From Pseudotabrizicola sediminis (lineage in GTDB: Bacteria; Pseudomonadota; Alphaproteobacteria; Rhodobacterales; Rhodobacteraceae), in the NCBI RefSeq assembly GCF_004745575.1, contig NZ_RPEM01000001.1, positions 456,556 to 520,555 on the forward strand: a stretch of DNA of 64,000 bases. Reading direction: 5' to 3'. Positions 39,978-41,896 of the stretch are shown piece after piece (position 1 is the first letter of the stretch; each line of letters starts with the position of its first letter). The translations under genes and the position numbers were made by a program. A model generated the notes under the pieces. That model had not been told where the DNA came from. It saw only the letters and a list, made by a program, of their open reading frames with translations, and did not search any database.

Positions 39978-40721
39978 CTAAGGCGAAAGGTCGGGAATTC
40001 CAAGCGGTGGCAGCGATGATAACACCATCACCGTGCCGATCGCCGTCAGCATCGCCCAGCCGAAGGACGCCAGCGTGCCGATGATGACATATTCCGACAG
40101 CCGCGACTCCTCCTTGACCGCGCCAAAGCGCAGCACGGATTTGGCGGCGATCAGAAAGCCGATGCCGCCGGGCTCGCCCGCCAGGATCAGCACAAAGATG
40201 ATCCCGCGCTCCAGCATCCCGATGATCCGGCCACCGCCGGGCAGACCGTCCAGGCCCACCTCGCCCCAGGGCCGCATCAGCAGACCAAGCGCAAAGCCAC
40301 CCGCACGGGTGGCCAGCACCGCACCTGCGATCACCGTTGCTGCGGCGGGCAGCCAGAGCGGGGCGTGCGCGGCCCACAGCCCCTGCGCCCAAAGCTGCGG
40401 CGCAAGGCCGGCGACCAGGCCCAGCGTCACCAGATGCGCCGCCTGATCGGCGACAAAGGCGGCAATCCCCGACAGGCGCGCGCCAATCGCCACCTTGGCC
40501 GCATCAATTCCAAGATGCGCCAGGCTCAGTCCCGCCACCCAGGCCGCCGCCTGCGGCGTCTGCACGCCCAGCAGCACAGTGGCAACCGCGCCCACCACCC
40601 CGATATGCGCCATCATCCAGCCGATGTGCCCCCCGGCCTTGGCCAGTGCCATGCGTCCCGGTTGCAGCACGAAATCCGCCAGCACATGCGCCAGCAGCAG
40701 CAGGGCAAGGGTTTCAGCCAT
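39978..40721 (-). CDS. DUF3307 membrane protein, SatD partner
   Basis: A 247-residue polytopic membrane protein with about seven hydrophobic segments. The DUF3307 pattern is LLLAHVLADFVLQP at the N-terminus and HLGIDAAKVAI near residue 80. A glycine-rich loop and an acidic-basic stretch KSVLRFGAVKEESRLSEYVIIGTL near the C-terminus are conserved-looking. Its start overlaps the SatD-like stop by eight bases, so the two are translationally coupled. Function unknown; I infer that SatD reads or controls its state. Confidence 0.85.
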   Translation of the reverse strand: MAETLALLLLAHVLADFVLQPGRMALAKAGGHIGWMMAHIGVVGAVATVLLGVQTPQAAAWVAGLSLAHLGIDAAKVAIGARLSGIAAFVADQAAHLVTLGLVAGLAPQLWAQGLWAAHAPLWLPAAATVIAGAVLATRAGGFALGLLMRPWGEVGLDGLPGGGRIIGMLERGIIFVLILAGEPGGIGFLIAAKSVLRFGAVKEESRLSEYVIIGTLASFGWAMLTAIGTVMVLSSLPPLGIPDLSP

Positions 40722-41346
40722 CAGCAGCCCCTTGCGCAAACTGCGCGGCAAAGGCGCGGGTGGCCTGCCGCGTCAGATCGAACCCGGCCGCCGACAAGCG
40801 CGCCGCGAAGGCCTGCCGCGAAATCCCCAACCGCTCGGCCTGCACCTGCTGGCTGTACGGCCCGTCGGGGTCGAGCGACAGGGCGACCGCCTCGGCCTGT
40901 TCCGGCGACCAGCCCTGCACCTGCGCGTCAAGATAGGCCATCAGCGCATGGTGCAGCGGGTCCACCCCTTTCCCGGCCAGGGCCAGCCACTGGCCATCGG
41001 TCATCGCATCCAGCGCCCGGCCGGACTGGACAAAGGCCGTTCCCCCCGCCGTTCCAAGAGTGCCCGTGTCAAAGCCGGTGGCATCGCCCAACCCAAGTGC
41101 CATTCGGCTGGACAGAAGATCCATGGCGCGCAGTTGCGCGGCAAGGAACAGCATGGCCTCCAGACCCCGCCCCGCCGCGCCGATATAGGCCTGCCAGCCG
41201 TCACCACGATAGCGGTGAAAGCGGGTGTCATCGCCGAACCGGTCCACCGCCTCTTCGATCACCATCATGGTGTCATCGACCTGCGCCGCAGTGCCGCGGG
41301 TTGACAGGATCAGATCGCCGGTAAGGACTGCGTGAAACTGGGCCAT
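40714..41346 (-). CDS. SatD-family protein with C-terminal helix-turn-helix
   Basis: A 210-residue protein. The N-terminal SatD domain starts AVLTGDLILSTR (6-17) and continues with YRGDGWQAYI (46-55) and MALGLGDATG (82-91). The C-terminal SQQVQAERLGISRQAFAARLSAAG (165-188) is a plausible helix-turn-helix, so this is probably a DNA-binding regulator. The ATG lies two bases from a palindromic repeat and has no Shine-Dalgarno, which suggests a leaderless or tightly controlled message. The TGD...GDGWQ...GLGD pattern faintly resembles nucleotidyl-cyclase/GGDEF palms; that is speculation. Function unknown. Confidence 0.75.
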   Translation of the reverse strand: MAQFHAVLTGDLILSTRGTAAQVDDTMMVIEEAVDRFGDDTRFHRYRGDGWQAYIGAAGRGLEAMLFLAAQLRAMDLLSSRMALGLGDATGFDTGTLGTAGGTAFVQSGRALDAMTDGQWLALAGKGVDPLHHALMAYLDAQVQGWSPEQAEAVALSLDPDGPYSQQVQAERLGISRQAFAARLSAAGFDLTRQATRAFAAQFAQGAADG

Positions 41347-41348
41347 GC

Positions 41349-41508
41349 GCAAGTCATATGACTTGCATTGCCAATATGCAAGTCAAACGGCCTGCACTCT
41401 TTGATGCAAGCCAAGTGCGTTGGATTTTCAACAAACAAGCCAAACATCCAGCACCCCTAGAGCAAGCCAAACGGCTTGCAAATGAAAAATGCAAGCCGGA
41501 TGGCTTGC
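41349..41508. repeat. Array of six 18-bp palindromic iterons
   Basis: Six units start at 41349, 41378, 41406, 41435, 41462 and 41491, spaced 29, 28, 29, 27 and 29 bases. Consensus is GCAAGYCAAAYGGCTTGC. The first (GCAAGTCATATGACTTGC), fifth (GCAAGCCAAACGGCTTGC) and sixth (GCAAGCCGGATGGCTTGC) are good inverted repeats; the second has one mismatch; the third and fourth keep the left half but have decayed right halves. Spacers are 9-11 bases and AT-rich. The array fills the region before the SatD-like gene, so it is most simply a multi-site operator for it. On the minus strand TTGACT in unit two could be a -35 box and CATATG in unit one the -10. Confidence 0.85.
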
Positions 41509-41519
41509 ATTCAGATCGC

Positions 41520-41536: not shown

Positions 41537-41896
41537 CTACATGAAGCCCAGTTCCAGCCGGGCCTCATCGCTCATCATCTCCATCCCCCAGGGCGGATCA
41601 AAGGTCATCTGCACATCAACCTGCTTGACGCCAGCCAGCGGCTCTACCGCATCGGCGACCCAGCCCGGCATCTCACCCGCCACCGGGCAGCCGGGGGCGG
41701 TCAGGGTCATGATGATACTGACCGCGTTTTCCGTATCAATCTCAACCGTGTAGATCAGCCCCAGATCAAAGATGTTCACCGGGATTTCCGGGTCAAACAC
41801 CGTGCGGCAGGCATCGACCACCGAGTCATACAACGGATGATCGGTGCTCGATGGTTTGATGAGCGGGGTGCCCTCGACTTTTGTTTCGCTGTTCAT
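41537..41896 (-). CDS. sufT: DUF59 Fe-S assembly protein, SufT-like (MIP18 family)
   Basis: A 119-residue MIP18/DUF59 protein. The conserved core is VFDPEIPVNIFDLGLIYTVEI, the cysteine motif TLTAPGCPVAGEMPGWV (Cys70 region), and QMTFDPPWGMEMMSDEARLELG at the end. These proteins help mature Fe-S clusters, mostly under cluster stress. A TATAAT box lies upstream. The same strand continues into the iteron array, SatD, DUF3307 and IscA. Confidence 0.9.
   Translation of the reverse strand: MNSETKVEGTPLIKPSSTDHPLYDSVVDACRTVFDPEIPVNIFDLGLIYTVEIDTENAVSIIMTLTAPGCPVAGEMPGWVADAVEPLAGVKQVDVQMTFDPPWGMEMMSDEARLELGFM

Follow-up and report, generated by a model that had tools for sequence, protein, structure and literature searches.

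A spaced palindromic array upstream of satD homologues as a putative operator for SatD autoregulation

Introduction

Short palindromes repeated at a regular step directly in front of a gene raise the question of which protein reads them, and to what effect. Such a case is found in Pseudotabrizicola sediminis (Rhodobacteraceae), where an array of six units precedes a gene for a SatD-like protein. Here, the window denotes the whole stretch of 64,000 nucleotides that was analysed (NCBI RefSeq assembly GCF_004745575.1, contig NZ_RPEM01000001.1, positions 456,556 to 520,555), and L numbers denote loci.

The SatD family (PF16264) is named after the sat operon of Streptococcus mutans. In the literature on SatD and DUF3307 that was accessible, with subscription papers mostly out of scope, neither a DNA-binding role nor an operator array was found. 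According to the accessible part of one study, satD is essential in the strains tested and yet present in 178 of 249 Streptococcus pyogenes genomes (PMC11323703). The accessible parts of two further papers contain a protein labelled as SatD family (PMC10326533) and a DUF3307 protein listed in a phage (PMC8504454).

The array and its locus

On the minus strand, the window carries in order a FeS_assembly_P gene, the array, the satD-like gene, a DUF3307 gene and an IscA-type (Fe-S_biosyn) gene (Table 1). The original prediction described six 18-bp units with a period of 27-29 bp, three of them good palindromes, one nearly so and two reduced to a half-site. Both points were borne out: the measured spacings are 29, 28, 29, 27 and 29 bp, and the mismatch counts assign units 1, 5 and 6 to the good palindromes, unit 2 to the near one and units 3 and 4 to the half-sites. 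The array also extends, as proposed, to 2 bp from the satD start codon, presumed to be the ATG at 41346-41344. Translation might also begin at a TTG in the same frame within unit 1 (41352), an alternative that cannot be excluded. The hairpin at the distal unit may also terminate the upstream FeS_assembly_P transcript. Searches with the gene products gave a membrane-protein family in PHROGs for the DUF3307 partner, and no PADLOC match for the four window proteins given.

Table 1 Features of the satD-like locus in the window
Feature	Position	Strand	Remarks
DUF3307 membrane-protein gene	39978..40721	-	8-base overlap with the end of satD
satD-like gene	40714..41346	-	210 aa; cyclase-like N-domain and C-terminal HTH
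Operator unit 1 (proximal)	41349..41366	.	perfect palindrome GCAAGTCATATGACTTGC; 0 mismatches to GCAAGYC-N4-GRCTTGC; -10-like hexamer in core
-10-like hexamer TATGAC	41353..41358	-	inside unit 1, 6 bp before ATG; inferred, leaderless start
Weak -35-like hexamer TTGCAT	41376..41381	-	17 bp from TATGAC; inferred
Operator unit 2	41378..41395	.	1 mismatch to GCAAGYC-N4-GRCTTGC
Operator unit 3	41406..41423	.	single half-site kept; 3 mismatches to GCAAGYC-N4-GRCTTGC
Operator unit 4	41435..41452	.	single half-site kept (ACAAGCC); absent among matches with <=3 mismatches
Operator unit 5	41462..41479	.	0 mismatches to GCAAGYC-N4-GRCTTGC
Terminator-like hairpin from distal unit, then T-run	41487..41512	-	
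Operator unit 6 (distal)	41491..41508	.	0 mismatches to GCAAGYC-N4-GRCTTGC
FeS_assembly_P gene (Pfam PF01883)	41537..41896	-	syntenic upstream neighbour, outside the module

Single sites with up to three mismatches number 21 in the window and 19.5 in shuffles, which is chance level. By a motif-free score for paired palindromes, the array holds the top seven of 1275 window tiles (scores of 28 or 24, lag 29), and the best tile outside it scores 23, at other lags. It is clustering, rather than single sites, that sets the array apart in the window. The term iteron, used at first for the units, is not apt in the replication sense, as no initiator was found among the four scanned neighbours (satD, DUF3307, FeS_assembly_P and Fe-S_biosyn). 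The array shares tandem, regularly spaced sites with replication iterons, but an operator is the better reading, no initiator gene having been seen nearby.

Conservation across SatD homologues

Absence of the array ahead of most homologues had been named in the original prediction as an outcome that would refute it. With no motif given, paired palindromes at a lag of 27-30 bp were detected upstream of satD in 77 of 95 loci at p<=0.01. At p<=0.05 the count rises to 84, whereas the control inside the gene gives 3 of 95. The prediction was therefore not refuted. By set, the stricter threshold was met in 46/59 Rhodobacteraceae, 25/27 Bacteroidia and 6/9 other Pseudomonadota loci, and the looser one in 49/59, 27/27 and 8/9, with inside-gene controls at 2/59, 0/27 and 1/9. 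The mean score peaks at lag 29 in Rhodobacteraceae (20.6; other lags 14.1-16.0) and at lag 28 in Bacteroidia (21.7; 17.5 at 29; other lags 15.1-16.2), and no comparable peak appears in inside-gene or shuffled controls. When all lags from 20 to 45 compete, 41/59 Rhodobacteraceae and 20/27 Bacteroidia loci exceed the 99th percentile of the shuffles, compared with 2/59 and 0/27 inside the gene.

Across loci the step is kept, in most cases at 28, 29 or 30 bp; what varies is the half-site (GCAAG, TCAAG, GCAACC, GAAAG, TATCGG, TATAGG). Arrays comprise between two and eight units, and DUF3307 lies downstream of satD in 94 of the 95 loci. The longest array among these loci (L108) has eight units at a strict 28-bp step, with TATCGTC half-sites. 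No array was found at p<=0.05 in 11 of the 95 loci. In six of these, residue 177 of the protein is Gln or Lys (L054, L061, L066, L079, L080, L118), and autoregulation may have been lost or altered there; the other five have R or P at this position (L038, L057, L062, L072, L125). Q or K at 177 also occurs where an array is present, in L059 (Q), L042 (K) and many Bacteroidia (Q).

The distribution of the gene is patchy. A first search returned a homologue in 12 of 61 genomes, including 7 of 16 of the genus, and all seven congeneric loci have the array. Among 248 Rhodobacteraceae genomes we obtained 52 strong homologues; the other 15 matching genomes gave only weak partial matches, whose range suggests that cyclase or HTH domains in other proteins were hit. 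Matches were present in 28 of 198 genomes from the class of the L023 genome, which we take to be Bacteroidia. Beyond its own class, the phylum of the window genome yielded nine genomes with E below 1e-7 (299 searched in all).

The analysed sets were defined as follows. L073, one of the 52 strong matches, has a start that could not be placed; it is included in the 59-locus lag spectrum, where it is probably the single locus with a best lag of 42, and left out of the 95. Also left out were L110 and L112 (partial or weak matches) and L083, L119, L122 and L128 (repeat loci of one genome), while L114, L115, L146 and L147 were judged by eye only. A second satD copy in genome G363 (L113), beside L089 in that genome, has repeats upstream, and DUF3307 was not found in the fetched locus.

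The SatD protein

The window protein itself does not match the Pfam PF16264 model, unlike part of its family. The designation SatD-like is supported through transitive homology: 28 of 94 aligned homologues reach PF16264 at E<=0.01, with 6.1e-13 as the lowest value. Matches to PF16264 occur in 4 of 299 genomes of the window's own phylum and in 2 of 201 from the phylum of L027, an Anaerolineae record; by eye, the upstream regions of these two, which were not scored, show no clear array. The canonical PF16264 proteins of L114 and L115, with a GDEFQ motif, have upstream palindromic repeats by eye (GAACC..GGTTC and TGACCC..GGGTCA), and downstream of their satD lies a different frame resembling a small membrane protein.

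An AlphaFold2 model built on 94 sequences (pLDDT 95.6, pTM 0.92) agrees with the C-terminal helix-turn-helix that had been read from the sequence: helices are predicted at 166-173 and 177-186, the second as the recognition helix, and family members match several HTH Pfam families. For the model, Foldseek returned 11 matches at E<=0.001, ten of them adenylyl cyclases (Rv1900c, Ma1120 and the Oscillatoria enzyme among them) and one GTP cyclohydrolase III; GGDEF domains rank lower in the list. Among PDB structures, an adenylyl cyclase domain matches best (E 1.9e-4; TM 0.42 by query, 0.51 by target), and TM-scores by query length are low among the 11 best matches (0.37-0.47). A profile match to 3mr7 spans residues 3-93 (E 0.0035), and its Asp residues align with D11 and D49, which together with G48 and G109 are invariant in the 94 sequences. 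In class III cyclases the corresponding two Asp bind metal.

The modelled fold supports a class III cyclase-like N-domain; the fold matches do not support cyclase activity. SatD thus resembles the class III nucleotidyl cyclase homology domain (Rv1900c, Ma1120) in fold and in both conserved Asp, but differs in joining a single such domain to an HTH, in its low TM-scores and in that catalysis has not been shown. Because the fold is cyclase-like and D11 and D49 are conserved and aligned to 3mr7, a nucleotide is a fair guess for the SatD ligand, although this is inferred and no activity has been shown.

Promoter elements and a model of autorepression

We consider it very likely that SatD represses its own gene through an operator array under which the promoter is buried. 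Computation supports the array and its conservation, the confinement of two-unit arrays to satD, the covariation of helix and operator, and a predicted fold; binding, dimerisation, cooperativity, the sign of repression and the nucleotide ligand are inferences. Under this model the C-terminal HTH would bind each palindromic unit, probably as a dimer, and neighbouring dimers, whose constant spacing of 28-30 bp the protein would dictate, would probably touch. Such contacts would let several weak or half sites fill cooperatively; cooperative binding and self-repression were already part of the original prediction and remain inferred. With a helical turn of about 10.5 bp, a step of 28-30 bp amounts to about 2.7-2.9 turns, not a whole number, and neighbours are therefore not stacked on one face. 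The fixed step in distant homologues suggests instead, by inference, that neighbouring dimers are in direct contact and wind round the DNA. The promoter would lie under the array, its -10 falling within the proximal unit's core, where sequence constraint is weak. Filling of the array would therefore shut off the satD-DUF3307 operon, whose controlled product would be the DUF3307 membrane protein. The N-terminal domain would probably sense, or make, a nucleotide and thereby set occupancy.

A promoter inside the array had been proposed with a -10 in unit 1 and a -35, TTGACT, in unit 2. The first element stands as an inferred and weak -10-like hexamer. The second, at 41386-41381, was rejected, since the gap of 22 bp to the best -10-like hexamer is too long. 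A consensus promoter scan at the window array called no promoter, the hexamers being weak. The position of TATGAC relative to the ATG fits a putative leaderless start. In the Rhodobacteraceae set, TAT occurs in the core of 19 of 46 proximal units against 6 of 89 distal ones (Fisher p 2.4e-6). Among Bacteroidia, TAnnTTTG, which we take to be the promoter consensus of that class, is present at varied offsets in 17 of 27 upstream regions, with no shuffle control.

These elements also bear on the sign of regulation. SatD could instead switch on its own operon or organise DNA, the array being of an activator or architectural type; sequence does not fix the sign, and the range of two to eight units speaks in favour of such a role. 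Against it, the -10-like core falls within the proximal unit, and in 25 of 65 loci an ATG in frame follows that unit after 2-3 bp, a proximal position known for repressors rather than activators. That count covers loci with a score >=24 and an ATG, and the ATG nearest to 2 bp was chosen, which favours short distances. A repressor on unit 1 would block RNA polymerase. We regard an activating or architectural array as improbable.

Proposed recognition of the array by SatD

The original prediction named the adjacent HTH protein as the binder of the array, and covariation between recognition helix and half-site lends support to this, in the absence of binding data. We compared the evaluable columns of a 210-column model with each operator position in the 46 loci of the Rhodobacteraceae set with a score >=22. 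Column 177, the first residue of the predicted recognition helix, covaries most with the operator by mutual information (Z 12.1, against base -9). Seven of the top ten columns fall within 175-183, and columns 82, 143 and 47 lie outside the helix. The combinations of residue 177 and base -9 in the 46 loci are R-G 34, P-T 5, T-T 2, A-T 1, K-T 1, R-A 2 and Q-A 1; arginine-guanine is a common major-groove contact. Helices with SRQA or TRQA mostly go with a GCAAG half-site, and those with SPQA, SAQA, STQA or SKQA with TCAAG or TCAAC. KSRQ-VTK helices are found with GCAACC, GCACCC, GCAGCC or GCATCC, mostly at a 30-bp step, and Bacteroidia with Gln at 177 often with TATAGG, TATAAG or TATCGG. L117 is an exception, having Arg at the aligned position and T at -9.

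The shuffles behind these scores ignore relatedness, and phylogeny was not removed from the scan. On a tree of 148 N-terminal columns, residue 177 has switched between R and non-R no fewer than 8 times, and the base has changed no fewer than 10 times. A paired test admitted 53 of 78 loci with a score >=22; the remaining 25 were left out because at 28-bp spacing the inter-unit dyad cannot be distinguished from the unit dyad. Residue and base are discordant in 2 of the 53 (L051 and L060), both of which look like register errors when the sequence is read, and are still counted as discordant. Only three independent pairs rest on supported branches; the base follows the direction of the residue in an average of 2.9 of them and runs counter to it in none (sign test p 0.25). 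GCAAG together with Arg is also found elsewhere in the tree, in L085, L120 and L127, the last two from another class of the phylum, which looks like a putative recurrence of one solution. A protein-DNA code of this kind, linking residue 177 to base -9, points to SatD as the reader of its own array.

A different regulator, encoded elsewhere, could nonetheless bind the array and hold SatD as a mere passenger of its regulon, given that no SatD binding has been measured and that the SatD HTH matches only general HTH families, weakly. This is very unlikely, as the half-site shifts with SatD's own recognition helix and distant homologues have the same architecture with different motifs. Occurrence argues in the same direction. 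A search of seven congeneric genomes for two units at a 29-bp step, with <=3 mismatches allowed, gives matches at satD and nowhere else, and a reversed pattern gives 0. In satD-free relatives, the array is absent downstream of FeS_assembly_P at 20 of 20 readable sites; 25 genomes, satD-free by the first genome search, were searched, two had no close homologue, and 3 of the 23 sites lacked a stop codon.

An exact scan for two adjacent units in 84,980 species, one genome each, gave 11 loci. Seven are at satD (L019, L020, L021, L022, L023, L024, L028), of which L021, L022 and L024 are on the same contigs as congeneric loci. L025, L027 and L029 have no relative within the fetched 8 kb. In L026 (CP059262.1), array units stand beside FeS_assembly_P, and neither satD nor DUF3307 was found in the genome; this is a putative relic of the array. 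The L026 record is titled as an Exiguobacterium profundum MAG, yet its FeS_assembly_P and IscA genes are Rhodobacteraceae-like, and it is perhaps mislabelled. Among viral_contigs, 60 stretches match a pattern, none of them encoding a relative. Single sites with <=3 mismatches in the window's own genome number 1065, against 1080 for the reversed control, and one-mismatch sites do occur elsewhere in it, so that single-site targets away from satD are neither shown nor excluded.

The repeats might also act as RNA, through hairpins in the 5' transcript that serve attenuation, stability or protein binding. The sense strand does fold better than shuffled sequences do (z -5.6), and the distal unit forms a terminator-like hairpin with a T-run, but any DNA palindrome also folds as RNA. 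The arms contain, on the sense strand, 92 A.C mismatches and 73 G.U, so that A.C is no rarer than G.U and RNA pairing is not favoured; moreover, should the proximal unit's -10-like core be in use, the transcript would begin past the array. We find a role as RNA highly improbable. Lastly, a dispersed or mobile repeat (REP/MITE-like, CRISPR-like or plasmid iterons) at the locus by chance, to which tandem short palindromes with regular spacing would correspond, was rejected on copy number and plasmid search and retains virtually no credibility, since there is no further two-unit match in seven whole genomes, the window SatD has no match in 72,556 plasmid records, the neighbours that match a family are DUF3307 and genes for Fe-S assembly, and the motif varies between loci along with the protein.

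Discussion

Autorepression by SatD through its own array has parallels. Antitoxins and phage and plasmid repressors are autorepressors with repeated operators, and SatD resembles them as an HTH protein encoded by the first of two genes, with palindromes over its own promoter region. It differs from them in an array of 2-8 units whose 28-30 bp step is kept in distant homologues, in its cyclase-like domain and in its DUF3307 partner. We know of no toxicity of the DUF3307 membrane protein. That satD is essential yet accessory in Streptococcus pyogenes, as far as the accessible part of that study goes, might be what is expected for the repressor of a harmful partner. This, together with the overlapping genes and the patchy presence (52 strong homologues from 248 genomes), hints at a further possibility, which we put forward as doubtful: SatD-DUF3307 could be an undescribed nucleotide-gated module in at least two phyla, in which a cyclase-fold regulator polymerises on the array and silences a potentially harmful DUF3307, in the manner of a toxin-antitoxin system, until a nucleotide signal arrives.

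The array, predicted to be an operator, is common among the homologues examined and more widespread than first noted, and each SatD very probably controls its own gene via sites tuned to it, with binding inferred from sequence. If true, a family so far filed under an acid-tolerance name gains a concrete role, that of autoregulators which bind DNA, and a code between protein and DNA that can be read from residue 177 and base -9. The loci would offer a natural series of matched regulator and operator pairs, in which spacing is fixed and sequence changes, for the study of specificity evolution and for orthogonal regulators. The finding also points to the cyclase-like fold as a transcription-factor sensor, and would give a handle on the control of DUF3307.
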